This document shows positions 8,115 through 45,461 of a stretch of DNA of 45,461 nucleotides, piece after piece. Positions within the stretch are counted from its first letter, which is position 1, and each line of letters starts with the position of its first letter. The translations under genes and the position numbers were made by a program. The notes beneath the pieces were generated by a model that ran no database searches, was not told where the DNA came from, and saw only the letters and a list, made by a program, of their open reading frames with translations. The stretch spans positions 1 through 45,461 of IMG/VR virus record IMGVR_UViG_3300025151_000070, one strand, 5' to 3'. The DNA is from a virus.

Positions 8115-9701
8115 TTATATTTTTTGACCAGTAACCCAGTTTATGACTTTTTTTGCTCTACTTTCTTCTATTCTAGTTATTTTGTCTTCTAGCTTAGAAG
8201 CTTCTATTGCAGAGCTTTTAGGAGGTTTTGCTGTTGTGACTGCATACCAAAGTCCGTCAAGTAGGTCGTCATTCCTACCTTTTGGAAACTCAAACATCTC
8301 ATCTACTATATTTGCATGTTCTTTTTTGATAAACATTTTTCTTCGATTTACAATAGGGCAAAGCAATGCTTCTAACCTATCTTCTTTTTTGATACCAGCA
8401 GGAGGTCTTACTCCTTGAGATAAACCAGGAGCTAGTTTTCTGTCTTTTCCTACAAGTTGATTTACGTAATCTTTTACTAATCCTTGAGCACCGACTTTTT
8501 CTACATTAACTCTTCTTACAGGGTGATATTCTTTTGCCATATTTACAATTCGTTTTGGCATATCATATAAAGGAGAGTGCTCTCTATAGTAATCTACTAC
8601 ATATATATTTCTATCGCTATCAATAGCAATAACCATAATTACCTGAAAGTCGCTTCTTGCATTTGCTTCATAAGCTAAGTCAACTCCTATATATACATTT
8701 ACAGGTATAGCAGACTCATCTACCATCATATAGTTAAAACCGTTTCTTTCTATAAGATTTCCTTGATAATAATTTAATCTATCTATATGAAACTTAGCAC
8801 TTTCTAAATCTCTTGCTTCATTTAGATATTCTTGAGCAAACTTATGAACCAAGCCCATTTCAGTAAATCTTCTTTTAATATCAATTAGCTTCTCTCTAGT
8901 AAAATAGCTAGGCCATAGAGGAACATCGTCTACTATAGCCTTTTTATATAGCACATTCCAAGCAGATTTTCTATCTTCTTTTTGAGCTTGTAGATATCCA
9001 TCGTACACTCCTTGTAGGAATGAATCGTAGTGGACTATCGTACCAATAAGCCATATTGACCCTTCGTTTTCTTTGGAGTTTTCCAAAGCGGGTTCTACTG
9101 TTGACATTACCCATTCTTTAATCTCTCTTCTTCTTTCTGGTGTTTTCGTATTTAATTCTGATTCAAAGTCATCAAGAATAATATTTGTATATCTTAATCC
9201 TAACTGAGAACGACCACGCAAACGTTGTGATGTACCTTTTGCAATAATTCTATCTCCTCTAGCGGTAGTAAATTCTTTTTCTGTCCACTTACTGCCTTTT
9301 AAGTCTCCAAAGTAATATTGAAGTGCTGGATTTATATCTATATGATTTTGTATATACTTAATATGGTCAATAGCCTGAGACTGTTCTTCTGACACCCAAG
9401 CAATAAATTGTTTTTTTTCTGGTGGAGAAAAATATAATTGATGTAAAAGCGCTGTTTTAGCTAACGTTGATTTAGCATGACCTCTGGGCAATATAATACA
9501 AACACGTTTATCTTGACCTAAAAGTATATCACTTAACTCATACTGATAAGGAGCAGGAGTTGACTTCATAAAATCTTCTGGTAGAAACATTTGACCAAAA
9601 GTCACAATATCCTTTCTTGCCAACTCCAAAGCTTTTTCTTTTTGAGAAAGGTCTGGTGGTATAATATTAAACTGTTCTGGCTTCTTCGTATTCTTTTTCA
9701 T
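8115..9701 (-). CDS. terL: terminase large subunit (ATPase/nuclease)
   Basis: This 528-residue DNA-packaging motor carries a Walker A variant LPRGHAKST (residues about 71-79). The Walker B segment IILDD has a following Glu (about 174-180), and there is a likely coupling motif at SIWLIGT. The C-terminal RNase H-fold nuclease begins at VYIGVDLAYE (D341 is the first metal ligand), and a late acidic motif RNDDLLDGLWYAV follows near residue 490. The start ATG lies 34 nt inside the upstream cyclotransferase-like gene. Partners are the portal and the small subunit at 10237-10998. The family is clear; the packaging type (cos, headful) cannot be read from this gene alone. Confidence 0.95.
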   Translation of the reverse strand: MKKNTKKPEQFNIIPPDLSQKEKALELARKDIVTFGQMFLPEDFMKSTPAPYQYELSDILLGQDKRVCIILPRGHAKSTLAKTALLHQLYFSPPEKKQFIAWVSEEQSQAIDHIKYIQNHIDINPALQYYFGDLKGSKWTEKEFTTARGDRIIAKGTSQRLRGRSQLGLRYTNIILDDFESELNTKTPERRREIKEWVMSTVEPALENSKENEGSIWLIGTIVHYDSFLQGVYDGYLQAQKEDRKSAWNVLYKKAIVDDVPLWPSYFTREKLIDIKRRFTEMGLVHKFAQEYLNEARDLESAKFHIDRLNYYQGNLIERNGFNYMMVDESAIPVNVYIGVDLAYEANARSDFQVIMVIAIDSDRNIYVVDYYREHSPLYDMPKRIVNMAKEYHPVRRVNVEKVGAQGLVKDYVNQLVGKDRKLAPGLSQGVRPPAGIKKEDRLEALLCPIVNRRKMFIKKEHANIVDEMFEFPKGRNDDLLDGLWYAVTTAKPPKSSAIEASKLEDKITRIEESRAKKVINWVTGQKI

Positions 9702-10074
9702 AAACTCTATCCATCATAACCATAGTTTTAGGTGAAAGCCAATCACCGTCAGGAACTTCTGTAAACATGCTAGAGCTTTGCCAAAGTAAAGGTCCAGCAA
9801 CATAAACCCAACATTTTTCTTTTTTATTTGTTTCATCAAGTATTATGTTAGCTGTTGTTCTTATATATAAACCATCTTTTGTAGATTCGTACATATCATA
9901 CATATTTAACTCTTCATCAGTAACATCCATAACTTCTACTATAGCACCTTTTCCTTTTTCGTTTTTAATTAAAGCTGGAAAAGACTTAGTCCCAGGAAAT
10001 ACAAGACTAAATCCTTCAATCTTTCCAGTTTCTTCAAAACCTGTTCTTAATGTTCCGTATACTGCTAATCTCAT
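9667..10074 (-). CDS. AIG2/gamma-glutamylcyclotransferase-like protein
   Basis: This 135-residue protein begins with VYGTLRTG, matching the Y-G-[ST]-L-[RM] substrate-pocket loop of gamma-glutamylcyclotransferases and gamma-glutamylaminecyclotransferases. A Glu in the expected helix (MYDMYE, E63) could be the catalytic base, and LYIRTTANI then matches the conserved strand after it. Known members cleave gamma-glutamyl amino acids or gamma-glutamyl-amines to 5-oxoproline. The gene is wedged between the terminase subunits: ATGA overlap with the upstream gene and 34-nt overlap with terL. In Pfam, Aig2 cyclotransferases are noted as gene neighbours of Amidoligase_2, and an Amidoligase_2-like protein is encoded at 16945-18705. 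The substrate here is unknown. Confidence 0.85.
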   Translation of the reverse strand: MRLAVYGTLRTGFEETGKIEGFSLVFPGTKSFPALIKNEKGKGAIVEVMDVTDEELNMYDMYESTKDGLYIRTTANIILDETNKKEKCWVYVAGPLLWQSSSMFTEVPDGDWLSPKTMVMMDRVYEKEYEEARTV

Positions 10075-12339: not shown

Positions 12340-12508
12340 TTGGAAAGTCCTCCGCATCTTTTACATTTTCTAATTCACGTATTAACTTATCCCAGTTAAG
12401 GTTTTGACGTATTTTTTCTAATTCATCTAGTTCTTGCTGTAATCTTTGAACTAATGGTGCATTTCCTTGTTCTTTTGCTTTTAAGATTGCTTTTTTGAGG
12501 TCTTCCAT
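12323..12508 (-). CDS. small coiled-coil protein, 61 aa
   Basis: The protein is highly charged and helical (KKAILKAKEQGNAPLVQRLQ and QELDELEKIRQNL), likely a short coiled coil. It overlaps the upstream zincin gene by 28 nt and the downstream DUF1599-like gene by 17 nt. Its GGAGG-containing end supplies the ribosome binding site for the latter, so the three are translationally linked. Function unknown. Confidence 0.6.
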   Translation of the reverse strand: MEDLKKAILKAKEQGNAPLVQRLQQELDELEKIRQNLNWDKLIRELENVKDAEDFPNEPEN

Positions 12509-12801
12509 AGATAGTCTCCTACTCCTAGTTGAAATAATCCGTTTGATATAGCATCAATAAGCCTTTCTTCGTGTTCTAGCCCATAATTAAAGAATATAGC
12601 GTGTAATACTTCGTGTACTAACGTTTCTTGTTTTCTGGATTTATGTATTTCGCTGTTAATAAGTATGATATTGTCTTTTACCAGATGTCTACCATATAGT
12701 TCTTTACTTTCATCTTCGTGTGTTAGTGGTAATTCTACTACCTTGTATAAATGACCACCGATAGTTAATTCCATTGCTTTTTTTTGTTCTTTTTTACTCA
12801 T
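12481..12801 (-). CDS. zincin-like metallopeptidase (ImmA/IrrE-type), 106 aa
   Basis: The motif HEVLHAIF (H63, E64, H67) is the HExxH zinc site of minimal metallopeptidases. E79 or E80 in the following helix (EHEERLIDAISNGLFQLGV) is the likely third ligand. ImmA/IrrE-type members cut repressors in mobile elements; phage versions of this short form are of unknown target. It is the first gene of the left operon, directly downstream of the divergent control region, with a GGGAG ribosome binding site. That position suits an early or regulatory role. Confidence 0.8.
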   Translation of the reverse strand: MSKKEQKKAMELTIGGHLYKVVELPLTHEDESKELYGRHLVKDNIILINSEIHKSRKQETLVHEVLHAIFFNYGLEHEERLIDAISNGLFQLGVGDYLWKTSKKQS

Positions 12802-15887: not shown

Positions 15888-16955
15888 ATGTGTGGTATAT
15901 ATGGTATAGCAAAGTCTCCGACGCCGTACACTAAGAGACAACATAAAGTTGTCAAAAAGGTGTTGCGTGAAATAGCAATAGATAGCCAGTCGCGTGGTTC
16001 TCATTCGTCTGGTATTGCTAAAGTCGGAACTAGCACTAGAATATATAAATCACTATTGCCGTCTGAGAAGTTTGTAGATACAAAAGAATATAATGAGGCA
16101 GTCAAGTCATTACTAGACGCTTCATACATATTGCTTGGACATACACGCTTCGCCACAGAAGGAGCAATAGTCAAATCGAACGCACACCCATTTAGAGTAG
16201 GCAACGTCGTTGGCGCTCATAATGGTTGCGTTTACAATATTAAAGAAATGCAAGGTAAACTAGACAAACAATGTCCAGTAGACAGCCAGCTTATCTTTAA
16301 GTCAATTAACGATAATGATAATATACAGGAAGCAGTCAAAGATTTTGACAGCGACTTTGCGTTATCGTTTGTTAAAGAAAACCCAATGGTATTGTATTTA
16401 TGTAGAGAGACAAATCGTCCTTTACACGTCGCATACGTACCTGAACTAAAAACGTTGTTCTATGCAAGTGAAGCGTCGTTTATTAATGATGCTTTAATAA
16501 TGCATAATTTAGACGCAGACGTTTATAGTCTTAACAAAAATACATTATATGCTTTTGATACGTCAAGGTTTGACGATTTAAAGACTAATGTAGAAAAGAC
16601 GTTGTTCAAGTATGAAAGCAGAACGTATAGATGGAATATCAATCAATACCCGACAAATCGTGGTTGGGGTCATTTCAAAAATGCAAGTCAAGTAGTGGAC
16701 TATAACTCGCAACAAGAACTTGAATTTGATGATGACATAAATGATGATTGGTCTAAACAATGGCTTAATGACGAAGCGTTGGAACTAGCTGAGATATTTC
16801 AGACTAGTCCCAATTCTTGGTTCTTTGACGAAAGCGACGACACTTGGTATTACGTCTGTCCTCACTCAGAAGAGGTATTTAGTGAAGACAAGATGTTTAA
16901 TGACAAGTATGGAATAGACGTCTGGGAAGAGGTAGAGGTCAAAAATGCCTCCTGA
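15888..16955 (+). CDS. class-II glutamine amidotransferase (Ntn hydrolase)
   Basis: This 355-residue protein starts MCGIYGIA, so Cys2 becomes the N-terminal nucleophile after Met removal, as in GlmS, PurF and asparagine synthetase. The other class-II landmarks are present: GHTRFAT (R87), NAHPF (98-102), HNG (111-113) and a following Asp (D132). About residues 1-225 form this glutaminase, which releases ammonia from glutamine. The C-terminal about 130 residues are acidic and unrecognised; no sugar-isomerase or synthetase domain is fused. The 3' end overlaps the amidoligase gene by 11 nt, which strongly suggests that it feeds ammonia, or a glutamyl-transfer activity, to that enzyme. AAAGGAG precedes the ATG. 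Confidence 0.9.
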   Translation: MCGIYGIAKSPTPYTKRQHKVVKKVLREIAIDSQSRGSHSSGIAKVGTSTRIYKSLLPSEKFVDTKEYNEAVKSLLDASYILLGHTRFATEGAIVKSNAHPFRVGNVVGAHNGCVYNIKEMQGKLDKQCPVDSQLIFKSINDNDNIQEAVKDFDSDFALSFVKENPMVLYLCRETNRPLHVAYVPELKTLFYASEASFINDALIMHNLDADVYSLNKNTLYAFDTSRFDDLKTNVEKTLFKYESRTYRWNINQYPTNRGWGHFKNASQVVDYNSQQELEFDDDINDDWSKQWLNDEALELAEIFQTSPNSWFFDESDDTWYYVCPHSEEVFSEDKMFNDKYGIDVWEEVEVKNAS

Positions 16956-18705
16956 AGGATATAGAGACCAGCCAAACCTTGACGTAGATACAGAAGTCTC
17001 TTGTTGTGAAGACTGTAATGAAGACGTCGTCGAAGATGGCAATCATTACACCAATTCAAGTGGCGACCCTTTGTGCGATAGTTGTGCAGAGAATTACGTC
17101 AATTGTGAATGTGGAGAGAATATTCATCAAGATGACGCTATGGAGTTTGATGGTCAATACTTCTGCGAGCCTTGTTATGATGAAGCAGTGATGTGTTGTC
17201 CTTCTTGCGACTACGAGATGTATCGTGATGATATGAGTTGGTCAGACAGGTATGGAGACTATCTCTGTGATAGTTGCTACGAAGAACACGATGAATATAG
17301 TCTACCTAATTGGGAAGTCTATAGCCACAATTATGTTCAAAGCAGAACTGACTGGGTACACCCTGATAGACATTATTACCCGAAAGACACTTTTCGTTGG
17401 ATAAAGTCTAAAAGGTATATCGGTCTAGAACTGGAGACTAACTTCAGGTATGACGAGAGCTTCGGAGAAGTCCAAGACGACCTGAACTACGAACTCGGAA
17501 GAACAAGAGACACTTCTAAGAGAGACAGTTATCATACTCTTGGTATGTCTAACTTTGTCTCCGACGGAAGCGTCACAAGTCAAAGGCACCGATATGGTGG
17601 CGAACTTGTTATGCGACCAAGACGTGGCGATAGACTATTACACGATGCTGACTTCTTTTGTAAGCGTCTGGAAAACCAGTGGAACGCATATGCGTCTTGG
17701 AAGACTGGACTTCACTTACATATAGACGTCCAAGACTACGACTGGATACACGCGTCAGTCTTAACACTATTTACTAAACTGATGGAACCTCATATTTATA
17801 CGTGGTTGCCAAAGTCTAGATACTATGGTAGTGGTGGACAACGTTGGGGCAGACCAGTTTCACAAGTAGTCGGTGATTTCAAATACATTGGCGATAGAGA
17901 TAGTTTTATAGAGTTCTATTACGACAATGGTGGTTATACAAACGAAAAGTATAACGACAAAAGATATCATGGACTGAATTGGCATAGCCATTTCCAAGCC
18001 AATCAAGGTCTGGAAATACGATATCACTCAGGTACTTTGCAAACAGACAAAATCAAGTACTGGACGAAATTCTGGACACAAGTCGTGGATAGGTCTTACG
18101 AAATAGCAGAAGACATTAAAGACAATATGATTAGTTATTCCAACTTTGGAAATACTGATATGTTTAAGTCTTTATGGGTTTCTTCTACTGTAAACACCAA
18201 GTTGTCGCAGATGTCAAATCAGTATAGTCAATATACTGACTATGGTGATAGTTCTGACGTATTTGATTATAGGAAAAAGTCTGAGGTATTACGACGATAT
18301 CTCGGTCTGCCTAAAAAAGATAGACCTTACTTATTGCAACCTATGGTACATTATTTGAGACATAGAGCAAATAGGTCTTGTATGTCGTTAGATAATATCT
18401 ACGACGTGTTCGACATAGACGCTGATACAAAGAGCTACTTCCAAAATAGGAAGGAGCAATTATATAATGCTATGGAAGAACATACAGCGACTAAATTCTA
18501 CAACGACGTATTTTCTAACGTCGATAGTATTGTAGAGTTTAACAAAGAGAAAATGGCATTTGAGTACAAAGACATATTTAAGGATACGTTCTTACTTGTG
18601 AACGACGTTAGATGTGAGGTGTGGAAACAAATGTCCGAACAAAAACAAAGTGTAGACTATGAATACCATCTAGTCAATTATAGTAATTATGATACTACTT
18701 TGTAA
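16945..18705 (+). CDS. Amidoligase_2-like enzyme with N-terminal zinc-finger array
   Basis: This is a 586-residue protein. Residues about 18-115 hold repeated Cys-x2-Cys pairs (CCEDC, CDSC, CECG, CEPC, CPSC, CDSC) like LIM or treble-clef zinc fingers. Residues about 150-420 match the glutamine-synthetase-fold Amidoligase_2 family: IGLELET (E162, E164), DGS (207-209), GGELVM (E220), TGLHLHID (H257, H259, D261) and LEIRYHSGT (R359, H361). Such enzymes are predicted to form amide bonds using ATP, and Pfam notes neighbours that are glutamine amidotransferase-like or Aig2 cyclotransferases; both kinds are present in this genome. The C-terminal about 150 residues are helical and unrecognised. A GAGGT precedes the ATG within the upstream gene. 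The substrate is unknown. Confidence 0.85.
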   Translation: MPPEGYRDQPNLDVDTEVSCCEDCNEDVVEDGNHYTNSSGDPLCDSCAENYVNCECGENIHQDDAMEFDGQYFCEPCYDEAVMCCPSCDYEMYRDDMSWSDRYGDYLCDSCYEEHDEYSLPNWEVYSHNYVQSRTDWVHPDRHYYPKDTFRWIKSKRYIGLELETNFRYDESFGEVQDDLNYELGRTRDTSKRDSYHTLGMSNFVSDGSVTSQRHRYGGELVMRPRRGDRLLHDADFFCKRLENQWNAYASWKTGLHLHIDVQDYDWIHASVLTLFTKLMEPHIYTWLPKSRYYGSGGQRWGRPVSQVVGDFKYIGDRDSFIEFYYDNGGYTNEKYNDKRYHGLNWHSHFQANQGLEIRYHSGTLQTDKIKYWTKFWTQVVDRSYEIAEDIKDNMISYSNFGNTDMFKSLWVSSTVNTKLSQMSNQYSQYTDYGDSSDVFDYRKKSEVLRRYLGLPKKDRPYLLQPMVHYLRHRANRSCMSLDNIYDVFDIDADTKSYFQNRKEQLYNAMEEHTATKFYNDVFSNVDSIVEFNKEKMAFEYKDIFKDTFLLVNDVRCEVWKQMSEQKQSVDYEYHLVNYSNYDTTL

Positions 18706-18718
18706 AGACAATCAAGAT

Positions 18719-18759
18719 GGCGTCCGACAATTTTATGTCGGGCGTCGCTTGGTTTTTTT
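18719..18759 (+). terminator. rho-independent terminator after the amidoligase gene
   Basis: GGCGTCCGACA and TGTCGGGCGTC form an 11-bp stem with two G-U pairs and a 6-nt loop, followed after GCTTGG by seven T residues. It lies 14 bp after the amidoligase stop, so the amidotransferase/amidoligase unit ends here. Confidence 0.75.
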
Positions 18760-18961: not shown

Positions 18962-19170
18962 ACGATACTATAAGTAAGAAAAGCGACCCTGCTTTCATCA
19001 AAATATATATTCCAGTCGCTCACGATGAAGAGACTGAGCTAGATGTATGGGATGTAGACTTTGCTTACAACGAGTTTGCTAATGCTATCAAAGAGTTTGA
19101 GAACGACAATGATATGCGCTATGACGCTTGGAATGATAAGCAAAGAGATTATATGAATGACCAAAGATGA
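18958..19170 (+). CDS. small acidic protein, 70 aa
   Basis: Asp/Glu/Asn-rich, with the pattern DVWDVDFAYNEFANAIKEFE. No family recognised. The ATG at 18958 has a weak GGGAAA upstream and overlaps the previous frame as ATGA; an ATG four codons earlier is possible. It ends in an ATGA-type overlap with the next gene. It opens a tightly packed run of seven small ORFs leading to the recombination genes. Confidence 0.6.
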   Translation: MNDTISKKSDPAFIKIYIPVAHDEETELDVWDVDFAYNEFANAIKEFENDNDMRYDAWNDKQRDYMNDQR

Positions 19171-19523
19171 GTTATCTTGGATTTATATCAGTTGAAAAGG
19201 GCGAGTCGTCTAAAGGTCTATGGGAACCAACAGTTGTTTGTAAGTGTGGCAATAGACACGAAGGCGACGAGCCAAGTATTAATGTTAAAGAATGTGAACA
19301 ATGTGAGGGAAATATGATTGAACACAAAGAAGGTGTTATAGAAATGATAGATACAGACGATATGATGGTCTGTGGATATTGTGGTATTGAAGAATTTTAT
19401 ATGGAAGATTGCGACTGCTCTGAAGAAGTTATAACTTACTCTGAATTTGAAGAGAAAATATCAGAAGAGACTATCGGCAATAAAGATGAATATCATAGAA
19501 TATTAGACGGAGGTAGGTGCTAA
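19167..19523 (+). CDS. acidic zinc-binding protein, 118 aa
   Basis: Several Cys pairs are visible: CKCG (25-28), CEQC (43-46), CGYC (69-72) and CDC (83-85). They suggest two zinc ribbons in an otherwise very acidic protein, reminiscent of DNA-mimic or transcription-binding phage proteins (inference). It is coupled to both neighbours, overlapping by 4 nt upstream and in a TAATG arrangement downstream. Confidence 0.65.
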   Translation: MSYLGFISVEKGESSKGLWEPTVVCKCGNRHEGDEPSINVKECEQCEGNMIEHKEGVIEMIDTDDMMVCGYCGIEEFYMEDCDCSEEVITYSEFEEKISEETIGNKDEYHRILDGGRC

Positions 19524-24480: not shown

Positions 24481-25781
24481 GTGGTATATTTAGCGACGAT
24501 GCAGAAAGAGCTGTATTAGGTTCTATTCTAATAAAAGATGAGTGCTATGATGTAGTAAAAGAATACATTGTAGAAAGCGAAGCGTTTTACGTAGAGAAAA
24601 ATAAAAAGATTTGGGAAGTAATGACAGAACTTAAGTCAGAAAATATTCCAATAGACATCGTTAATATATCTAGCAAGATAAAAGGCATTACATATTATTT
24701 AACAGGACTATCTGAAATACCTAGTACTGCTAATGTAGAGTCGTATGCTAAGCAAGTTAATTCTGATTGGCTAAGAAGAAAACTAGTATCGCAATCACAC
24801 GAGATTGCTAAGAAAGCTTACGACAATAATAATGATATTAGCAGTTTACTTGTAAATGTTCACGACACAACAAGCTCTTTACTAAACTTAGAGCCTGGTC
24901 AAAAGTTTGACTTAGATACATTGTTGTCTATGACAAAAGATTCTCTGTTCAACAAACGCAACCTAACTACCACTGGTTTTGCTCCGATAGATAATATAAT
25001 ATCGGGTATGACTAGAGGAGAAATAACTATTTTTGCTGGGCGACCTGGGAATGCTAAAACCACGACAGTTGCCAATATAGCTAGAAATCTTGTGTTGTCT
25101 GGCAAAAAGGTTGTGATGTTCAATAGAGAAATGCCTAATACTGAGATGATGAAAAAGTTTATTGCTATGGAAGCAGAGGGTATTACATACCATATGTTGC
25201 GACATAACGCAGTCACTAGTAAATCAGAGATTGAAAAAAGTTTAAATATTATTAAAGAAAAGTATACTGACAAACTATTTATGTTTGACAACATACGAAA
25301 TTTAGAGGGAACTTTTCGTGAAATTAGACGTATAAAACCTGACGTCGTTATTGACGACCATATAGGTTTGATTGAATACCCTAGTAATGATATGAGAGAT
25401 TTAAGATTGAAAATAGGTGATACATCAAGAAGATATAAATGGTTGTGTAAGTCTGAGAATATTTCAGTTATTCTTGTTTCACAACTTAATCGTAACATAG
25501 AGTATAGGACAGAAAGAATTCCTAAACTTAGTGACCTTGCCGAGTCTGGTAATCTAGAACAGGACGCAGAGATTGTAGCATTTACACATTATCCTTGGAC
25601 TGTAAACTTTGAGAATGCAAAGCATGGAAAGTATGGACTAGATATAGTTGTGGCTAAAAATAGGTATGGGTCAACAGGGAAAGCAACGGTTGGTTTCTCA
25701 CCAGATTGTTGTACGTTGTATGATACTGTGGAAGAAGCAGAAGCAAGTGTCGCAAAAGAAATGCCAGGCGTTCCATTTTAG
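24465..25781 (+). CDS. DnaB-like replicative helicase
   Basis: In this 438-residue protein, residues about 8-115 match the DnaB N-terminal domain (DDAERAVLGSILIKDECYDV). The RecA-like core has Walker A GRPGNAKTT (192-200), Walker B DVVIDDHIG, and the SQLNR block with the trailing SDLAESGNLEQDAEIV typical of DnaB/SF4 helicases. It should unwind DNA at the phage replication fork. With no phage polymerase or primase visible, it would work with host enzymes. It converges tail to tail with the leftward gene at 25778 with a 4-nt overlap and no terminator between. Confidence 0.9.
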   Translation: MQESVGGIFSDDAERAVLGSILIKDECYDVVKEYIVESEAFYVEKNKKIWEVMTELKSENIPIDIVNISSKIKGITYYLTGLSEIPSTANVESYAKQVNSDWLRRKLVSQSHEIAKKAYDNNNDISSLLVNVHDTTSSLLNLEPGQKFDLDTLLSMTKDSLFNKRNLTTTGFAPIDNIISGMTRGEITIFAGRPGNAKTTTVANIARNLVLSGKKVVMFNREMPNTEMMKKFIAMEAEGITYHMLRHNAVTSKSEIEKSLNIIKEKYTDKLFMFDNIRNLEGTFREIRRIKPDVVIDDHIGLIEYPSNDMRDLRLKIGDTSRRYKWLCKSENISVILVSQLNRNIEYRTERIPKLSDLAESGNLEQDAEIVAFTHYPWTVNFENAKHGKYGLDIVVAKNRYGSTGKATVGFSPDCCTLYDTVEEAEASVAKEMPGVPF

Positions 25782-26527
25782 AATTGTGAAAGAGATAGTA
25801 TGTCTTCTATGTTTTCTAGCGATGGAGACCTTCTTCTACGAGGCTTTTTTTTGAAGCTTTTTCTTTTCATAAAATCACTTCTCATTTCATCCATAAGCTC
25901 TCTTCTCATTATGTTAAATAGACCCATCTGTATATCGTTGTCTGGAAATGGACCTATTCCTAGGTCTTCTAAGGAGCCTAAATTTATAGAAACAGGCTTA
26001 CCTTCTCCTTCTCTTGCATCGCTACCAAACTTTCCAGCAAGAGCAGATACAAGGTCGTAAGCGTTAAGTTGGCCTGATTCAGTTAATACTTCTAATAAGG
26101 TTGCATTTTTATATTTATTGGGCTCAAGTTCAAAATCGTACATATCTTTTATAACTGCTTGACCTCCGCTTAAATCTAAAGTAGACTTACCTAAAGATGT
26201 TTTTAAACTTAGTGCTGGGTCAAAACTTTTTTTAATAAGACTTAATAAATTACCTTCGAACATAATATCATCAGGACTTCTTGTATATTCTCCACCTGGC
26301 TGAATAGCAACTGTTTCTTTATCTACAAAACGTCCACTGTTAATTATCTCTACTAGATTAGTTTTTAAATAATCTAACTCCTTAGACGTTAAGTCTTCTT
26401 CAGTAAAAACTTTATCAGGACTACCAAACAAGTCTGCTAACAAAAATCTAGCATTAGAAGGTATAATGCTCTTTCTTTTGCTACCAAATAATCTTTTAAA
26501 TAATCCTTGTCTATCTGCGTATTTCAT
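25778..26527 (-). CDS. hypothetical protein, 249 aa, last gene of the ejection-protein cluster
   Basis: No family recognised. The protein is mixed alpha/beta and ends in a very basic stretch (MKRKSFKKKPRRRRSP) before a short tail. Repeated LDLSGG/INLGSLEDLG-like loops are seen in the middle. It follows the ART-like gene by 3 bp and belongs to the set of genes downstream of the 1736-residue protein. It is perhaps packaged and injected with it, on positional grounds. Confidence 0.65.
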   Translation of the reverse strand: MKYADRQGLFKRLFGSKRKSIIPSNARFLLADLFGSPDKVFTEEDLTSKELDYLKTNLVEIINSGRFVDKETVAIQPGGEYTRSPDDIMFEGNLLSLIKKSFDPALSLKTSLGKSTLDLSGGQAVIKDMYDFELEPNKYKNATLLEVLTESGQLNAYDLVSALAGKFGSDAREGEGKPVSINLGSLEDLGIGPFPDNDIQMGLFNIMRRELMDEMRSDFMKRKSFKKKPRRRRSPSLENIEDILSLSQF

Positions 26528-28212: not shown

Positions 28213-31200
28213 TTAGTTTCTTTTTAATAATCCTTTCAGAGGTCTATCTGCACCCTCTGCTCTGTATCCTTCTTGTTCTTTTAATCTCTTCTCCCTAATT
28301 TTTTCTTGTCTTTCTAATGCTTTTTGATAAGATTCTTCTGAAGGGAAGTCTTCTCTTAGTTTACCAAAAGCCATCTTTCCTCTTCCTGGTATAATTGTTA
28401 CACCATCATCATCTACAAAACCAAACTCATCTTTAACGTTTGCTTCATAGTGTTTTTGATGTCGATTTACAAATCTTGCATAATATTCCATTACTTTTTT
28501 TTCAGAATAATCATCTGGAACAATTTGTAAACTAGGGAACCTTCTAACGTAAATAGATTCGTTCCAAGTTTTTATTTTTTCTCTTGCATCTGCCATCACT
28601 TCATCATAGTTATCTAGCTTATCAGGCATATATCCTATTTCTGGGTCGCCTTTTTCGTTGTAAGTAAACAACAACATATTATTTACTTCGCTTATTATGT
28701 TTGACTTCATAGAAGAAACCTTAGCTCTTTCAAAACCTTCTGGATATTGAGCAAGCTCTATATCTGTGAAAGGTACAACAAGCGGAGAATAATGATATCT
28801 TTTAAAGAAAGCATTAGGCATAGAACCAAATATAGGACCATTTTCTCTTAATAGTTTTCTCATTCTAATATCTATAGGTTCACTACCTTGGAAAAACAAT
28901 CCTTCTACCAGCCCTTCATCTCCTGGTTCTCCAAAAAGATTTCTTGTTAATTTAACAATATCGTCAACAATCAAAGGCTTAACAGCAAACTCTACACTAC
29001 TATAAAATGTATCCATGTTTGCTATAATATCTCCAAAAGAACCTAAAGTACCAGCCCCTGCTAGTATGTTTAATCCATCTTCAAGGCTAAGCTGTCCCTT
29101 CTGTCCTTGGAAAAATTGTTTATTTATCTTATCAATATAATTTTTTTGTTCTCTTTGTCCATAAAAAGCTCTGTCTCCAGATAGTGCTTGCAAGAAAGCG
29201 TCTTTTGCTGATACAGCCATAGTACCTCCAGTTGCACCATATGCTAAAGTATATAAAGGTTGTAGTATGTTTCCATTTTCTATTTCAAACTTATTGTATT
29301 CAAAAGTATATCTAGTTTGTCTTATAGGGAATCTTTTAAATAGTAAAAGTGTTTTTGTATACTGGTCAGTAAAACCTAAAGCATCTAACTCAAAGTCTCT
29401 ACCCATCTGTGATTGCTGAGCATATCTTTCCATAGCTCCCATAATTTTTTTCTTTTGTCTTAATTGAGCTGGAGTAGTATAAGTTCTATTGATAACAGAA
29501 TCTTTAAACTTTTCAAGCTCTTTTGGATTTAAATTAAATACTTGTTTTAATTTATTTGTTGCATAAGATTTTCTTTGTGCTCCAGTTAGTACAGTTGGCA
29601 TACCAATATCAAATCCAGGTTTACCATCTAACATCTTAGTAAGCTTTATAATATTGTCTTCTGCAGCAGAAGCAGCAACGATTTTATTCCAAACGTTAAC
29701 AGTCATAAATGGCTTAGAAGCAACATCTTGTGCTACCTGCCAATAATCATTAGCACCCCAAACTTCTCTAGCATAGCTTTCAGTAAGACCTCCAGTTGCT
29801 CTAGACTGACCTCTTTGTAAAGCTCTACTACCACCAAGAAGTTCATCATACAAATTCAAAGCTGTAGCTCCAGAACGTTTTACCATATCTCTTACCTGAG
29901 GATTTGTCCAATAATTTACCAAACCTCTTACTGTAGAAGCAGCTCCAAGTTGAGGCAATGTAGAAATAAATGTCTGAGTTAAATTAGGAATAACAGCAGT
30001 ACCAAAGTTAATTTTAAAGAAGAACTCTATCTCTGCAGCTTTTAAAGCTCCAGCTGTAAAGTCGTTAAATCTACTAAATGCATCTTCACCAGTAATTGTT
30101 TCTTTTAAAAGTCTTACCGCATCTTTCTCTTTGACAATAAAAGGTGGTAGTTTATCAGGACTGTTTCCTTTGAATACTCTACCTATATAGCTTCCTGCTC
30201 CTTGCAATTCTATAGAATCATCTATTTGATTTACAATAGTTTCAAATAAAGCTCCTTCTGGCATAAACATTTTGTTTAATTCTATAGCTTTTGTAGAACC
30301 ATTTATATAGTCTGTTCCAAGAGTTACTACATTTTTATCCAACAAGTTAGTTTTCTTTTGTTCAGCCAAAGCCATGATATCTACGCTTTTTCCTTTACCT
30401 AAAAGTTTTTTACTTTTCTGTAAAGGAGCATATGTTTTAAATCCATCGTTATATATTTGAGCTTGTATATTAGCCCATACATCATAGTTTGGAACATCAG
30501 ATAAGCTACCAGGCTTTGCCTCTAAAGCATCTCTTGTCATTGTCCAAACGTCTGCAAAAGCTCTCTCTGCTTCATCTTTAGAACCAGCAAGTTTTTTTAC
30601 ATAATCTTCTAGGTATTCTGTTAATTCTGCTTTTTTGGTTTCGTCTAAATTTCTTAAAGCTACATCAGAATCTAAACTTAGATTGTCTAGCTCTTTCATA
30701 ATAACTTTCATCTTTTGATTTATGTTTAACATATTAGAATATATAGCATCTCTTATTGGTTTTTTTATAACACTAGGTAGGTAGTATTTTTGTCTACCTG
30801 CTAGTTTCATTTTTGTTGAAAGAGCATCATCGTATATAGGGTCAAAGGTTCTTTTTAAATTTTTAACAATCTTAACTCTGTTGTTTAAGAAAAATCTTTC
30901 TTCTGGTGTTAATGGAAACTCTGTGCCTTTTCTGTCTGCTTTTCTTATAAGTCTTTTATTTTCTTTTATCATTTCATCTAAATAGTCTACACCAGTTATT
31001 TCTCCACCCTGTAGCTTCTGATATGTTTTCCAGGCAGAAGGTATTTTTGTTCCATTCTGAAGTACAATTTCGTCAGTTTGACCTACCAACCATCTTTCTG
31101 TTAATCTACTTTGAAAAGGATTATATCCAAACATTCTTGAAACAGGCAACACAGCCTTTCTTAAACTTATAACAGATGTGTCCATACCTAAAGCCTGCTG

Positions 31201-33423
31201 AAAAGTAACTACTCTATCTGTAGCTGTTGAGGTAATGTTTCTGTCAAGTTGAGCAAACATTCTTGTAAGAGTTTTAGCTTGAGGACTTTGTAAAGATGAC
31301 TGAAATCCAGCAAATAAAGACCTTGCAAAGTTTTCAGCAATAGATGCTCCTGATGTACCAGAAATATTCTCAAGTTCTCCAAAAAATTCTCTTCTTATAT
31401 ATTCTTCATGGTTTCTTAATAGAGCCATATCTCCAAATTGTTCTGTAACAAGTCTCATTTCTATATCAGACATATCGTTTATGTCAGGAAGTTTGTCTGG
31501 ATTTTGAAATTTCTTTATATCGTATTCTGCACCTACGTTTGCTATAGCTCTATCATAGTCTCCTTTTTTCAAGCCATGCTTTCCTGAGTAAGAATCATCT
31601 CTTAGACCCTCTAAAGCCTTTCTTCTAATTCTAGTCATTGCAAACTTTTGATTAAATACTCCCTTATTATTTGCTTCAAATCTTTTTTTCAGTCCAGGTT
31701 GAGATGTATAGAATTTAAAGAATAAATCAGCGTTTTCTTCATCTAACGAATATCTTAATCTTCCTGCTTTTACTTCAAAAGATATACCAGTATCGGTAAC
31801 TTCCATAGAGTTTCTATCTATCTTAACGTCTAAATCTTTTGGTATTTCATGTAGAGTAGGTTCTAGACTACCATCTGCTCTTACTACCTTACCTTTAATA
31901 TTAACATTCATATATGGTCCAGTAGCCATACCTTTTGGCAGCTGTCTTGAATTTAATCTTTTAATAGCCATGTCTGATTGGTCTGTTTCATAACCTATTA
32001 GCTGCATGTTACCATCTGCGTCTGTTTCAAAGATAGGTTTTGATGTTACATCTGTTGAAGTGTTTTCTACTTTAATTAAAGGGTCTTGAACTCTAGTATA
32101 TATATCTTTGCTTCTTTTTCTAGAGCCCGCTAAACTAACTGCCTCTTCTGCAGCATCAGCAAACTCTTCCAAGCTCATAGACCTTGTATCTACACCTGGA
32201 GCAAACTTACCAGTTTTGTATGCATTTCTAAGACTTGATGGTACATATGAAGCCAGAACAACGCTAGTCGTTAAAGTTGCAAGACCTACTTCTCCACCTT
32301 CTATGTCTGATATAACCTTTCTCATTTCAGGTTCTACGATAGCAGCAGTTAAGAATCCTCCAGCTATCTCTCCACCAATACCATACTCAACACCTTTTGT
32401 AGTAACACCTCTTGGTCTAAAACCTGTTTCTACCTGAAGTTTTCTGCTTGTAGGCATAATAGGACCAAGAAGACCACCTTTGGTGTATCTGTTCATACCA
32501 AATCCAGTAGCACCACCTATTGCAATACTATAACCTTTTAAAAAATCTTTAGGGTCTGCATAGTTTACTAAGTCTTTTGCAAATAAATTATATCTTTCCA
32601 TTTCACTTAAACCATCAAATTTGTCCAAGTCATAGTCTCCTGCAATAACAGCATCTCTAAGATTTAAAGTTGAGCCGTATAACATATCTAGGTTAGCAAA
32701 AGTAATTCCTTCATATCCCAAAATTCTATTCATATCCGTTACATAAGGTTTAATAGCTCTTTTAGGCATAATTCCTTTTTTAACCAGTTGTTTTGCTATA
32801 TAATTATTAACAGAATTTAAACCTAAATTTTTTGCACCTATGTTTATTCCTGTTTTTGCAAGCTTACCTAAACCTAAAGAGCCTGCAGTAATCAAAGCAT
32901 TTTCTCTTGAAGGCATTAAGAAACCTCCTATTCCAACTCCAAGATTATACATCCAACTTTCGTCTCCAAGAGGTAAGTCAAATGGTTGTTCACCGTAAAG
33001 AACACTTTCTGCTATACCAGGAATACTTCTATTGTAAGCGTCTTTAATCATTCTTCCACCAGGTCCATTATATGCACCTATTGACCATCTTAACGCATTG
33101 TTCCAATATCCAAGAGAGTATTCTAACTCTTCGTCTGTAGGAGCTATATAATTTCTTTCTTCTTTAGGCGGTCTACCTCTTTCGCTAAGAAGTCTAGGGT
33201 CGTCGTCTTCTTTTATTTTAGCTTTTAATTCTTCAATTCTTTTTAACCTTGCAGGGTCATTAAAATAAGAATCAGCTTCGGAATAAGGATTAGGGTTCCA
33301 ATCTGGCATTAATGGAATTAATTTTAAGTTAGGGTTTCCTGTATATGCATCAAAACCAGTTTGCTTATTACTTGATAGAGCGCTTGAAAAGTCTATCTGC
33401 GGATTTGTTGGGCCATTAGACAA
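28213..33423 (-). CDS. giant internal virion / DNA-ejection protein, 1736 aa
   Basis: This is the largest gene in the window. The protein is mainly helical with several Gly/Ala-rich amphipathic or membrane-like stretches, for example around residues 160-200 and 300-320 and in the last 400 (LAYGATGGTMAVSAKDAFLQ). Large polyproteins of this kind form the internal core or trans-envelope ejection channel of podoviruses (T7 gp16 is the functional analogue). The block LFKRFPIRQTRYTFEYNKFE is one I recall from large marine phage virion proteins. The start is TTG at 33423: AGAGGA lies 8 bases upstream and no in-frame ATG is nearby. No lytic transglycosylase motif was recognised. Confidence 0.75.
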   Translation of the reverse strand: MSNGPTNPQIDFSSALSSNKQTGFDAYTGNPNLKLIPLMPDWNPNPYSEADSYFNDPARLKRIEELKAKIKEDDDPRLLSERGRPPKEERNYIAPTDEELEYSLGYWNNALRWSIGAYNGPGGRMIKDAYNRSIPGIAESVLYGEQPFDLPLGDESWMYNLGVGIGGFLMPSRENALITAGSLGLGKLAKTGINIGAKNLGLNSVNNYIAKQLVKKGIMPKRAIKPYVTDMNRILGYEGITFANLDMLYGSTLNLRDAVIAGDYDLDKFDGLSEMERYNLFAKDLVNYADPKDFLKGYSIAIGGATGFGMNRYTKGGLLGPIMPTSRKLQVETGFRPRGVTTKGVEYGIGGEIAGGFLTAAIVEPEMRKVISDIEGGEVGLATLTTSVVLASYVPSSLRNAYKTGKFAPGVDTRSMSLEEFADAAEEAVSLAGSRKRSKDIYTRVQDPLIKVENTSTDVTSKPIFETDADGNMQLIGYETDQSDMAIKRLNSRQLPKGMATGPYMNVNIKGKVVRADGSLEPTLHEIPKDLDVKIDRNSMEVTDTGISFEVKAGRLRYSLDEENADLFFKFYTSQPGLKKRFEANNKGVFNQKFAMTRIRRKALEGLRDDSYSGKHGLKKGDYDRAIANVGAEYDIKKFQNPDKLPDINDMSDIEMRLVTEQFGDMALLRNHEEYIRREFFGELENISGTSGASIAENFARSLFAGFQSSLQSPQAKTLTRMFAQLDRNITSTATDRVVTFQQALGMDTSVISLRKAVLPVSRMFGYNPFQSRLTERWLVGQTDEIVLQNGTKIPSAWKTYQKLQGGEITGVDYLDEMIKENKRLIRKADRKGTEFPLTPEERFFLNNRVKIVKNLKRTFDPIYDDALSTKMKLAGRQKYYLPSVIKKPIRDAIYSNMLNINQKMKVIMKELDNLSLDSDVALRNLDETKKAELTEYLEDYVKKLAGSKDEAERAFADVWTMTRDALEAKPGSLSDVPNYDVWANIQAQIYNDGFKTYAPLQKSKKLLGKGKSVDIMALAEQKKTNLLDKNVVTLGTDYINGSTKAIELNKMFMPEGALFETIVNQIDDSIELQGAGSYIGRVFKGNSPDKLPPFIVKEKDAVRLLKETITGEDAFSRFNDFTAGALKAAEIEFFFKINFGTAVIPNLTQTFISTLPQLGAASTVRGLVNYWTNPQVRDMVKRSGATALNLYDELLGGSRALQRGQSRATGGLTESYAREVWGANDYWQVAQDVASKPFMTVNVWNKIVAASAAEDNIIKLTKMLDGKPGFDIGMPTVLTGAQRKSYATNKLKQVFNLNPKELEKFKDSVINRTYTTPAQLRQKKKIMGAMERYAQQSQMGRDFELDALGFTDQYTKTLLLFKRFPIRQTRYTFEYNKFEIENGNILQPLYTLAYGATGGTMAVSAKDAFLQALSGDRAFYGQREQKNYIDKINKQFFQGQKGQLSLEDGLNILAGAGTLGSFGDIIANMDTFYSSVEFAVKPLIVDDIVKLTRNLFGEPGDEGLVEGLFFQGSEPIDIRMRKLLRENGPIFGSMPNAFFKRYHYSPLVVPFTDIELAQYPEGFERAKVSSMKSNIISEVNNMLLFTYNEKGDPEIGYMPDKLDNYDEVMADAREKIKTWNESIYVRRFPSLQIVPDDYSEKKVMEYYARFVNRHQKHYEANVKDEFGFVDDDGVTIIPGRGKMAFGKLREDFPSEESYQKALERQEKIREKRLKEQEGYRAEGADRPLKGLLKRN

Positions 33424-40563: not shown

Positions 40564-41628
40564 TTATGTTATCTCACTGTGAACTAATACGCCACCTGCG
40601 TAAAAGTTATTATTCTTTGTTAATATTGTATATGTTAAATCTTCCTCTGCCATATATTCAAATCTATGAATTTGTTTATTTCCATCGATTGTTTTCATAA
40701 CGCTATTTTCTTCTAACTGACTAGCGTCTAAGTCATATAAATCTTTTGTCCTTTGCGGTCTATAACTAGCTATGCTGTTATCTGATAAATATATAGGGTG
40801 GTCTCTTGTTACTATAATATTATCTAAAACATTATCTTCGTTTTCATACATAATTCTTACTAACCTACTATGTCTTGGTTTTTCTATTCTAAGAATAGGT
40901 GTTTCCTCTATCTGTCCTGTTTCTAAATTGTAAGACAACACTAAATCGTCTACTGATAAATCATCAATACTCATTAAACCACTAGGAGTATCTACCAGTA
41001 CGCTATGATGTATACAAAGACCTCCTATTCCAGGGAAAGTTATGTTACCAGTAATAGCTGAACTATCTACCGAGTTATTTCTTACAGTAAACGAATAAGA
41101 ACCCGTACCGTCTTTGTTAGAAGGTTCGTGTAGCCAACCTGGTCTAAGTTTTAATGTACCAGAATTAAAGCTTGATAACGAATTTTGTAACGATGTAATA
41201 CTAGATACTCCGCTTGTACTTGTACTTGGTGTACTGCCATCTGTAGTAAATTGAAATCTTAAACTACCAAATGGACCACCACTTGTAGTAAAATTTTCTA
41301 TATCAATTCCGCCCGAACCTCCAGTTAATACTAGCGTAGCAAATCCGCTTGCCATAGCTGTTGTTCCTTCTGCCCCAGAACAATGCAAATTAGTATTACC
41401 GCTTGTGCTCCAAGACGTGCTTGAAGCGTCGTGGTCATAACTATAAAACTCAGACATATTGTGCGGAGCAGAGCCATCTGGTCTGTCTCCGCTATCATTT
41501 GCGGTGTTGATAGTTGCAACAGTTCCGTCAGATAAATCTTCTAATGAACTGTTAGCAGTTGTTCCACTCCTACCAAATTCTCCATTAATATCATTAATGC
41601 TAATTTGTCCTGATGACGTTAATGCCAT
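40564..41628 (-). CDS. fibre-like protein with C-terminal Hint autoprocessing domain, 354 aa
   Basis: Residues 1-62 match a module common in marine phage fibres (INDINGEFGRSGT ending MSEFYSYDHD). Residues about 70-204 are Gly/Ser-rich beta. Residues 205-354 form a Hint domain: the nucleophile C205 opens CIHHSVLVDTPSG, VTRDHPIY (H277) is block B, and FYAGGVLVHSEIT is the C-terminal block. Inteins end in Asn after VH; here it is Ser (H350-S351), so C-terminal splicing is not expected, but cleavage or nucleophile-driven attachment at L204/C205 is possible. Processing would release or covalently attach the N-terminal fibre part. It has a TAATG junction with a 15-codon ORF upstream. Confidence 0.8.
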   Translation of the reverse strand: MALTSSGQISINDINGEFGRSGTTANSSLEDLSDGTVATINTANDSGDRPDGSAPHNMSEFYSYDHDASSTSWSTSGNTNLHCSGAEGTTAMASGFATLVLTGGSGGIDIENFTTSGGPFGSLRFQFTTDGSTPSTSTSGVSSITSLQNSLSSFNSGTLKLRPGWLHEPSNKDGTGSYSFTVRNNSVDSSAITGNITFPGIGGLCIHHSVLVDTPSGLMSIDDLSVDDLVLSYNLETGQIEETPILRIEKPRHSRLVRIMYENEDNVLDNIIVTRDHPIYLSDNSIASYRPQRTKDLYDLDASQLEENSVMKTIDGNKQIHRFEYMAEEDLTYTILTKNNNFYAGGVLVHSEIT

Positions 41629-41918: not shown

Positions 41919-44900
41919 TCATTCTCCTAGTTTGGTTTTAAGTTCATCTATTTGAACTTGTTGTTCTTTTATTGCTTCTATTAAAACACCAACCATTTTA
42001 TCATAGTTTACTGTTTTAAATGTTTTTTCATTACCCTCGCCACCAAACTCTCCAGTACAAAGTTCGTGTTCGGTAACAAGTTCTGGTATTACTTTTTCTA
42101 CTTCTTGTGCAACTAACCCTATATCGTGTGTGCCTTTTCTTGAAGTAGCAGTCCAGTCATATTCTACACCTCTTAATGCCATTACTTTATCAAGAGCATT
42201 ATCTATGGTAGCAATATTTTCTTTTAATCTTTTATCTGATACAGTAGATGAATATGCAACTACATCACTATCAAAATGTCCTGCACCAGCTGCAGTTAGT
42301 CTAAATCTTTCAGTCATTGTCATTGCATTATTTAAAGTTCCATTTGCTGCTGCTCCTTGCCAAAATCTTAATTCATCATCTATAACTAATGCTCCTCTTA
42401 CAAAGTTTGAGTTGTCAGCAGAACATAAAAACTGGTCATTTGTATCTGTAGATGCTTTTACACCAAATCCTATAACAGTAGCAATAGAACTATATTGAGT
42501 GCTATAAGTATTTACATAATCTCCATTAGCTCCAGAATATCCGTGAGCCATATTAAAACAACCATTGGACGCAGCTCCATTTGCTACAATTGCTGGACTT
42601 GTTGATGAATCACTTTTTACATCAAGTTTTTCATAAGGAGTACTATTGTTAATACCAACTTTATCTGCACTTGCATCAGTAAATATCAAATGTGTGTCAG
42701 TATCTCCCTCTACTCTAAAATCTACTGCATCATCTCCACCTTGATTAATAACAACAGGTCCTGAATGACTCATTAAAAATACTGCTTCGTTAATTGTTCT
42801 ATTGTAAAAATATATTTGGCTTGTATCATGTTCTATACTGAATGTACTTCCACCATCTCGTGTGAAATATACTGAACCATCATCTGTAGTATTGATGTGT
42901 AAATCAGCACTCGGCGATGTAGTTCCTATACCGACTCTTTGAGAAGAGTCAATAGTTAAAGCATTGTTACCATCTGTTGAAAAATACAATGGCTGGGCTG
43001 CTTCAGTATATACACTTAAAGCACCACCATTGCTTCTGATATAATTGTTATTATTAGATGATAGATGAAATAGTCTTAATCCATTAGTAGTATCAGTTCC
43101 AACATATAAAGTTTCGTCATCGGCTAAGTAAATATCTCCATTAAAATTTGTTAATTTGTGATTTATAATTTGACCAGAACTACCATCTAATGTTAGGTAA
43201 GCTTCAACACCTCCACTACCATCGTCATTTCTAAAAATGATGTCAGTATCATCTACTTCATTAGTAATATAAAGACTACCATTATGATTTTCTATATTGT
43301 TATTGCTTGAAGAACTATTGTGATACATTTTTAAATCATTACCAGTTCCTAAATGGAATTGAACATTATCATCAAGTTTTACATAATCAGTTCCACCTTC
43401 ATACAATCTCATTATTTGAGTTCCACCAATTACAAAGTCTACTTGGTCTCCTGATGATTCGTGAACATAACTATTACCACCACCGTCAAAGTAAAATTTC
43501 TTAGTAGCAGCTAATCTTGCATCTACAAAGAAATCAAGAGAAGTTGCACCACCATCTAATCTTAAATATTCGTCATCTCCACCAGAACCATCATCGCAAT
43601 AGAACCTCATATCAGCATCAGTTGCTTGTGCCATAATTTTGAAATCACCATTCTTGCTTCTGATTACTGCTGTGTCAGCTCCACCTGCCTCAACATACAT
43701 TTCTAAGTCTTGACCAGCACCAATTTGGAATGTTGCGGCACCAGCATCTTGTGGTATCATAATCGCATTATTCCCTTCGTCCATTCTAAACATATGGTCT
43801 CCACCGACATAAAAGTCTAATCTATCTCCTGCTGTTTCTGAGATATAAGTGTGACTACCGCCATCTAAATAAAGTTTTTTGGTTGCATCTATCTTTGTAT
43901 CTTTTGCTATGAATATAGTATTTGTGCTACCATCTAATGTTAGGTAAGCTTCTGTTCCACCAGAACCATCATCTGATTTTAAAATTACATCTCCATCATC
44001 AGTTGATGTTTGAATAGTTAGATTCCCAGTGGCATTAGAGAAAGTTGCATTACTTCCATCATGCGATAAACTCATATCTCCACCACTACCAAGTTGTAAA
44101 TTAATACTATCGTCTAATCTTAAATCTTTCGATACATTAGTTCTTGTTTGACTACCATCTAATGTAAGGTATGCAGTTGTTCCGCCTGAACCATTATCTG
44201 ATTTTAAAATAATATCTGCATCATCTGTTTGTTGAGATATAATTAAATTACCAGTTCCAGCTCCTATTATGTAACTATTAGAACCATCGTGATGTATTTT
44301 TAAATCATCTCCTGCACCTGCTCGTAACTGAACACTATCAGCTAATTCTAAATTTTTAGCAACTTTAATAGCAGTAGCACTACCATCTAAAGTTAGATAA
44401 GGTGTAACTCCACCAGAGCCATCGTCTGATTGCAGTATAACATCTGCATCATTTACTGCATTGGTTATATATAAATTTCCAGTTGCTGTATTTTCTATGT
44501 AGCTATTACTTCCATTGTGCCATAGTGCTAAATCTGCACCTGCACCAATTCTTAATTCTTGATTATCGTTAGGTAATTTAAATTGTGCTACATTACTTGT
44601 ATCAATAGTCAATGCGTTAATAGTATTACTACCACCATCATCTACTTGAATATATATATCGCCATCGTCTGCGTGATTTCTTATATACAAAGCTCCTGTA
44701 TAATTATCTATAAATGAATTTGAGCCATTATGAAGTAATCTTAAATCGTTACCATCTCCTATTCTTACTTCTGCATTATCTGCTACATATAGCTCATCAT
44801 TAAACTGTGCTGGTTTGTCAAATACTGTTTTAGTAGAACTACCTGCTAAATAAAAGTAAGATGTCATACCACCACTTCCATCATCAGCTCTAAATATTAT

Positions 44901-45461
44901 TTCTCCATCATTAGTATTGTTATCTATGTATAAATTACCAGTATGGTTTTCTAAAGAACTATTACTGCCATCGTGATATATTCTAAAATCAGCACCAGTT
45001 CCAAATTCAAATTTTACATTATCTAATATGTATGCTTTCTTATCAAATTCAATTCTTTCATTATCACCATCTAATACAAGGTAATTAGTTACTCCACCAC
45101 TTCCATCATCATTTTTAAATATAATATCTTGGTTATCTGCTCTTTGTTGGAATATTAAAGCTCCTGTATAATTGTCAGCTCCGAAACTATTTGTTCCATT
45201 GTGATAAATTTGTAAATCATCAGAAGCACCATATCCTATAATTACACTATCAGGAACTCTTGTATTTCTGTTTAAAGTGTTTATTGCAAGACTACCATCT
45301 AAGGTTATGTAAGCAGTTGTACCACCACTACCATCGTCTGATTGGAAGATAATATCTTTATCATCAGCATTGTTTCTAATATAGAAATCTCCAGTAGAAT
45401 TATTTATGCTTGTATTAGTTCCATCGTGAATCATATTTAAATCAATATCATTACCAGCACC
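41919..45461 (-). CDS. long repetitive tail fibre with S74 peptidase/chaperone C-terminus (partial)
   Basis: At least 1180 residues. About 15 imperfect repeats of 50-65 residues share G[AT]G-DL--HDGSNS, TGNL, DD-DIIF-SDDGSGG and YL-LDGS; they probably form a long beta-helical or trimeric shaft. Residues about 950-1060 are a non-repeat domain. The C-terminal about 110 residues are a Peptidase_S74 intramolecular chaperone (SDKRLKENIATIDNALDKVM, then EYDWTATSRKG, GLVAQEVEKVIPELV and a final coiled coil), which folds the trimer and cleaves itself off. The open frame runs to the window edge, with nine codons before the first visible ATG at 45434, so the true start lies outside or across a joined end. 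Confidence 0.85.
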   Translation of the reverse strand, partial: GAGNDIDLNMIHDGTNTSINNSTGDFYIRNNADDKDIIFQSDDGSGGTTAYITLDGSLAINTLNRNTRVPDSVIIGYGASDDLQIYHNGTNSFGADNYTGALIFQQRADNQDIIFKNDDGSGGVTNYLVLDGDNERIEFDKKAYILDNVKFEFGTGADFRIYHDGSNSSLENHTGNLYIDNNTNDGEIIFRADDGSGGMTSYFYLAGSSTKTVFDKPAQFNDELYVADNAEVRIGDGNDLRLLHNGSNSFIDNYTGALYIRNHADDGDIYIQVDDGGSNTINALTIDTSNVAQFKLPNDNQELRIGAGADLALWHNGSNSYIENTATGNLYITNAVNDADVILQSDDGSGGVTPYLTLDGSATAIKVAKNLELADSVQLRAGAGDDLKIHHDGSNSYIIGAGTGNLIISQQTDDADIILKSDNGSGGTTAYLTLDGSQTRTNVSKDLRLDDSINLQLGSGGDMSLSHDGSNATFSNATGNLTIQTSTDDGDVILKSDDGSGGTEAYLTLDGSTNTIFIAKDTKIDATKKLYLDGGSHTYISETAGDRLDFYVGGDHMFRMDEGNNAIMIPQDAGAATFQIGAGQDLEMYVEAGGADTAVIRSKNGDFKIMAQATDADMRFYCDDGSGGDDEYLRLDGGATSLDFFVDARLAATKKFYFDGGGNSYVHESSGDQVDFVIGGTQIMRLYEGGTDYVKLDDNVQFHLGTGNDLKMYHNSSSSNNNIENHNGSLYITNEVDDTDIIFRNDDGSGGVEAYLTLDGSSGQIINHKLTNFNGDIYLADDETLYVGTDTTNGLRLFHLSSNNNNYIRSNGGALSVYTEAAQPLYFSTDGNNALTIDSSQRVGIGTTSPSADLHINTTDDGSVYFTRDGGSTFSIEHDTSQIYFYNRTINEAVFLMSHSGPVVINQGGDDAVDFRVEGDTDTHLIFTDASADKVGINNSTPYEKLDVKSDSSTSPAIVANGAASNGCFNMAHGYSGANGDYVNTYSTQYSSIATVIGFGVKASTDTNDQFLCSADNSNFVRGALVIDDELRFWQGAAANGTLNNAMTMTERFRLTAAGAGHFDSDVVAYSSTVSDKRLKENIATIDNALDKVMALRGVEYDWTATSRKGTHDIGLVAQEVEKVIPELVTEHELCTGEFGGEGNEKTFKTVNYDKMVGVLIEAIKEQQVQIDELKTKLGE

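Follow-up and report, generated by a model that had tools for sequence, protein, structure and literature searches.

Two overlapping genes on the plus strand of the window, by which we mean the whole 45,461-base viral record analysed here, encode a stand-alone class II (Ntn) glutamine amidotransferase of 355 aa (GATase, 15888-16955) and a 586-aa member of the Amidoligase_2 family (16945-18705). A third gene, at 9667-10074 on the minus strand, encodes a 135-aa GGACT/AIG2-like gamma-glutamyl(amine) cyclotransferase (GGACT). The record, whose G+C content is ~35%, is that of a phage, with a terminase, a P22-like portal, an SU10-type capsid protein, a DnaB helicase and a tail fibre all recognized. 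When its terminase (TerL) was compared with 50,697 phage records, every match fell below 60% identity, those listed lying at ~24-27%, and because terminase relatives among phage records are only distant, the lineage is, as judged by this protein, one without a near isolate. Profile searches of genome contigs with the amidoligase and terminase alignments returned no relatives, and so gave no clue to a host or prophage. Several further genes on the minus strand are worth recording. The 1171-aa tail fibre (41919-45434) contains repeated stretches, and its C-terminus matches many different fibre PHROGs. A 354-aa tail-region protein (40564-41628) carries a C-terminal Hint-like domain (PT-HINT, PF07591, 1.9e-5, just under the cut-off) and is possibly a self-processing structural protein, while a 1736-aa protein among the late genes (28213-33423), without a Pfam match, is perhaps an ejected virion protein. 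The product of 25778-26527, possibly a lysis or virion-associated domain, aligns with the C-terminal portion of an endolysin PHROG that is itself very long (4e-9), and 12481-12801 encodes an IrrE-like Peptidase_M78 protein of 106 aa (2e-5).

The GATase matches GATase_6 (PF13522) with an E-value of 6.2e-13 and 49.4 bits (cut-off 27), and PHROG 4736 with 1.3e-39. A Foldseek search with its structural model finds the glutaminase of GlmS (glucosamine-6-phosphate synthase, 1xff; E 2.9e-11, probability 1.00), as well as the glutaminase domains of PurF, AsnB and EgtC. No synthase domain follows the glutaminase in the polypeptide. Instead, the catalytic domain (residues ~1-240) leads into a variable C-terminal tail (241-355) that diverges far faster than the core, with median distances of 1.67 and 0.40, respectively. 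The Cys directly after the initiator Met is present, as are the catalytic R, H, N-G and D, and residues C2, R87, T90, H100, N112, G113 and D132 are invariant in 53 distinct sequences; we take them to be the equivalents of the GlmS catalytic residues. A Shine-Dalgarno-like AAAGGAG lies shortly upstream of the ATG. By profile, fold match and invariant residues, then, the product is the class II glutamine amidotransferase that the original prediction named, and glutaminase activity is predicted for it. The positions given there for both genes, and their 11-nt overlap (16945-16955), are also correct.

The downstream protein was likewise correctly named an amidoligase. It matches Amidoligase_2 (PF12224) with an E-value of 1.9e-14 and 54.6 bits (cut-off 22) over nearly the whole model, 15/15 of its relatives scanned match the same model, and a six-frame search places the catalytic core at 17413-18081. 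The sequence motifs first quoted for the pair are all there, most of them conserved. The ExE, second Glu, HxH and E-x-R motifs of Amidoligase_2 are kept in all 47 distinct sequences, in which E162, E164, E220, H257, H259, E357 and R359 are invariant. The proposed glutamine-synthetase fold fared less evenly: the sequence-profile match is strong, but the AlphaFold2 model is of low confidence (pLDDT 65), and its best glutamine synthetase match in the PDB is weak (E 0.4), so that the fold assignment draws mainly on the family profile and is only weakly suggested by structure. A search of a viral structure library with the same model returned phage amidoligases and a 'LIM domain containing protein', with E-values down to 2.3e-9. 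Among ten conserved genes compared, the amidoligase is the fastest-changing, with a median identity to the window protein of 42%, as against 62% for the GATase, 74.5% for GGACT and 78-87% for the seven other phage genes (terminase, 85%). At L048:10001-11741, and likewise at L092:10610-12350, the amidoligase is encoded as two overlapping ORFs of 452 and 166 aa, with the C-terminal part separated; a frameshift, a sequencing error or a natural fission are all possible. The pair is closed, as predicted, by an intrinsic terminator at 18718-18747 on the plus strand, with a 12-pair stem and a T-run, the folded stretch having z = -6.8 relative to shuffles. Just 3' of the amidoligase, 19167-19523 (+) encodes a small Cys-containing protein, present in many relatives although not all, whose match to a Lar-like PHROG for restriction alleviation is weak (0.023).

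Linkage of the three genes was assessed in lineage contigs retrieved as the best-scoring 80 per search, a sample outside which more distant members fall. The terminase served as a search anchor too, since searches based on the pair could favour pair-bearing contigs. With duplicates removed, GATase, amidoligase and GGACT are all present in 37/37 terminase-anchored contigs reaching at least 7.5 kb beyond that gene, and terminase-anchored searches find GGACT in 83/83 contigs with enough sequence. A glutaminase without the ligase occurs in the lineage only where a contig ends, and most distinct pairs have overlapping genes. Because the pair and GGACT are universally present in the lineage, they are, we would argue, core to its life cycle and not passing cargo. 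Both genes of the pair are under purifying selection, with dN/dS of 0.13-0.21 for the GATase and 0.23-0.32 for the amidoligase (0.05-0.06 for the terminase, for comparison). Chance ORFs and pseudogenes were rejected for both on this combined range of 0.13-0.32 together with the conserved residues. Conditioned on TerL and exonuclease distances across 38 genomes, the partial distance correlation between GATase and amidoligase is 0.81, compared with 0.10-0.30 for other pairs. In an adjacency control, admittedly small at 19 genomes, it is 0.79, against 0.11 and 0.25 for the neighbouring pairs 20492/21366 and 21366/22004. Some non-adjacent gene pairs in the same 19-genome set reach 0.5-0.66, however. 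High as it is, the value for GATase and amidoligase is thus not without parallel, and part of it could stem from the exchange of adjacent genes as a block.

Universal linkage, matched divergence and mostly overlapping genes bear out the earlier proposal of one functional unit. Probably, the two proteins are subunits of a single two-subunit, glutamine-dependent amide-forming enzyme, a statement that implies no single target. The Ntn glutaminase, with Cys2 as nucleophile, would release ammonia from host glutamine, and the Amidoligase_2 subunit would form the amide on a carboxylate that it has first activated, at the expense of ATP, as an acyl phosphate. Supply of ammonia by a glutaminase to a separate synthetase site is familiar from MurT-GatD and from GlmS, PurF and AsnB, although the synthetase folds of these enzymes differ from the amidoligase and the glutaminase of MurT-GatD is of class I. 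The poor amidoligase model and its faint resemblance to glutamine synthetase count against such an enzyme, as does any inflation of the co-evolution figure by block exchange. Could the proteins have nothing to do with one another, with the amidoligase domain a binding module and the glutaminase a supplier of nitrogen to metabolism at large? That the polypeptides are separate would fit. Even so, the proposal is improbable, given that linkage is universal, that divergence is matched and that the catalytic residues of both proteins are invariant. Loss of these residues in homologues that keep the glutaminase, which would have refuted the original prediction, is nowhere seen in the 47-53 distinct sequences.

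The original prediction treated the module in phages as new ground, yet the association had already been published (PMC5498523, PMC3890496, PMC10580990, PMC11945000). RIO1-like phages carry a seven-gene peptidoglycan modification cassette that includes a gamma-glutamyl amidoligase, a second amidoligase, an ATP-grasp enzyme, a cyclotransferase and a glutamine amidotransferase; the cassette is also listed for phiEco32, 7-11, PA11, tf, LUZ24, PaP3 and CW02 (PMC5498523) and occurs in LUZ24-like phages (PMC3890496, PMC11945000). The peptidoglycan-modifying role ascribed to the larger cassette is a predicted function (PMC5498523, PMC11945000). OM43 phages carry an amidoligase-GATase pair, for which an idea of superinfection exclusion has been relayed (PMC10580990), and early products of phage SU10 identified by mass spectrometry include a glutamine amidotransferase, an ATP-grasp-type enzyme and a YtfP/UPF0131 protein (PMC4281155). 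In our own searches, tblastn with the GATase found 334 phage records. Co-occurrence was evident in 15 named phages picked from these for their GATase relative, all 15 of which have a PF12224 match, 14 of them above cut-off. Most also have a COOH-NH2 ligase and an ATP-grasp gene (RimK-type in 11/14 isolates), and often GGACT.

Like the cassettes of the phiEco32/LUZ24/PA11/RIO1 type, in which the genes are generally clustered, the lineage combines a class II GATase with Amidoligase_2 and, as in many of them, GGACT/AIG2. It differs in that neither the COOH-NH2 ligase (PF14395), present in most larger cassettes, nor the RimK-type ATP-grasp (PF08443) was detected in any of eight lineage records, some of them incomplete. 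Its cyclotransferase is split off beside terL, whereas that of the phiEco32/LUZ24 type lies near the ligase genes, and its amidoligase, with 586 aa and zinc-finger-like units, is larger than the ~270-390 aa usual in the phiEco32/LUZ24/PA11/RIO1 type. Other phages come closer in one respect or another. The marine OM43 phages MEP401 and MEP402, likened here by description, have the same PF12224 and PF13522 pair (PMC10580990). Arthrobacter phage Wheelbite (gp92-94) has GGACT, amidoligase and GATase without a COOH-NH2 ligase, although its three genes are contiguous and its amidoligase, of 337 aa and with 23% core identity, lacks the Cys units. Phage ctRwf057 (MW202789), from spring water, has an amidoligase that is also long, at 684 aa, and rich in Cys in its N-terminal half; the gene adjoins a GATase relative, but the Cys spacing is different and GGACT was not detected in it. 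The pair is, in sum, a reduced, domain-extended variant of a phage module already described, and there is nothing new in the association as such. If the larger phiEco32/LUZ24/RIO1 cassettes are a guide, the likeliest role of the two-subunit enzyme would be to modify, in the infected cell, a host cell-wall precursor or a peptide, for instance so as to block superinfection. Precursors of the cell wall are also the target traditionally assumed. In several isolates, the cassette adjoins primase/helicase and polymerase genes, a setting that would also suit amidated hypermodification of phage DNA bases as a means of nuclease resistance. Such a function is highly unlikely, as no base-modifying gene was recognized in the window and published readings of the cassette favour peptide-type substrates (PMC5498523).

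The part of the amidoligase that sets the lineage apart went unmentioned in the original prediction. Residues 21-111 (17005-17277, plus strand) form three tandem four-Cys, zinc-finger-like units with the spacings CxxC-19-CxxC, CxC-17-CxxC and CxxC-19-CxxC. Ten of the 12 Cys residues are invariant, and the other two occur in 45/47 distinct sequences. The nearest solved relatives are LIM proteins, found weakly by both sequence-profile and structure searches of the PDB; the sequence search with the amidoligase profile found nothing besides these weak LIM matches, and the match to the LIM model (PF00412) is marginal, appearing in 2/15 members with a best E-value of 0.0059. In LIM domains, two residues separate successive four-Cys units, whereas here the units are 6-7 residues apart. 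Given this spacing and the weak scores, we do not regard the region as a true LIM domain; it is 'LIM-like' at most. Target recognition by the enzyme may lie with this N-terminus and with the variable C-terminus of the amidoligase. Both change faster than the catalytic core, with median distances of 1.45 for the zinc region and 1.94 for the hypervariable C-terminus, compared with 0.75.

These features raise the possibility of a protein target, from the host or from the phage itself, on which the zinc-finger-like region would dock while acidic side chains are amidated or cross-linked by the pair, in the service of host takeover or counter-defence. Such a reading overlaps that of the two-subunit enzyme, being the same enzyme with another target, and we regard it as a minority option that deserves attention. 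It would account for the conservation of the tandem Cys units in 47 sequences, the rapid change is what would be expected of target-binding parts that co-evolve, and the lineage records are without a detectable ATP-grasp or COOH-NH2 ligase of the presumed cell-wall cassette. Fast change can equally reflect relaxed constraint, however, and most cassette amidoligases from the isolates sampled are without the Cys units, so that the core activity is independent of them. A PADLOC search, moreover, gave no match.

The cyclotransferase that the original prediction noted elsewhere in the genome is confirmed by its match to PF06094 (1.6e-14), and its link to the pair is supported by their joint occurrence. 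The gene lies between terS and terL, overlapping the latter by 35 nt in the window, and in all 83 informative contigs of the lineage it either overlaps terL or lies directly against it, an unusual fixed position for a metabolic gene. The motifs YGTLR and YE....GLY.R are kept in 77 distinct sequences. GGACT is ~6 kb from the GATase-amidoligase pair, on the opposite strand and in another operon, and its distances show no special tracking of those of the pair (partial r 0.23-0.30). Enzymes of this family act on gamma-glutamyl amines, and the cyclotransferase, encoded among the packaging genes, might therefore cleave or recycle gamma-glutamyl-amine linkages. Plain amidation leaves it unexplained; from its presence one would expect some step at which a gamma-glutamyl-amine bond is formed or broken. 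One could imagine a small gamma-glutamyl-amine metabolite as the product, a gamma-glutamyl group being put on an amine, either by the glutamine-synthetase-like enzyme or by the glutaminase via a gamma-glutamyl thioester, and later removed by GGACT, much as in the protecting-group chemistry of butirosin. The constancy of GGACT in the lineage, its presence in many larger cassettes and the general substrate preference of the family would fit. We nevertheless consider such a metabolite rather unlikely, since GGACT is distant from the pair and co-varies with it only weakly, and no further metabolite-building genes were recognized beside it.

Whatever the target of the probable two-subunit enzyme, the question reaches well beyond this lineage. 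GATase relatives occur in hundreds of phage records, with amidoligase cassettes recurring alongside them, and our literature search found no paper demonstrating the reaction or substrate of any member. Reduced as it is to a single glutaminase and a single ligase, with the cyclotransferase at a distance, the lineage cassette brings the number of proteins needed to test the reaction down from five or more to two or three. There is also a small chance that a presumed cell-wall cassette has here become a glutamine-dependent enzyme that amidates proteins under the guidance of its zinc fingers, with binding parts evolving quickly against a target in the host. If true, this would be a phage-driven modification of host proteins of a form not previously demonstrated.
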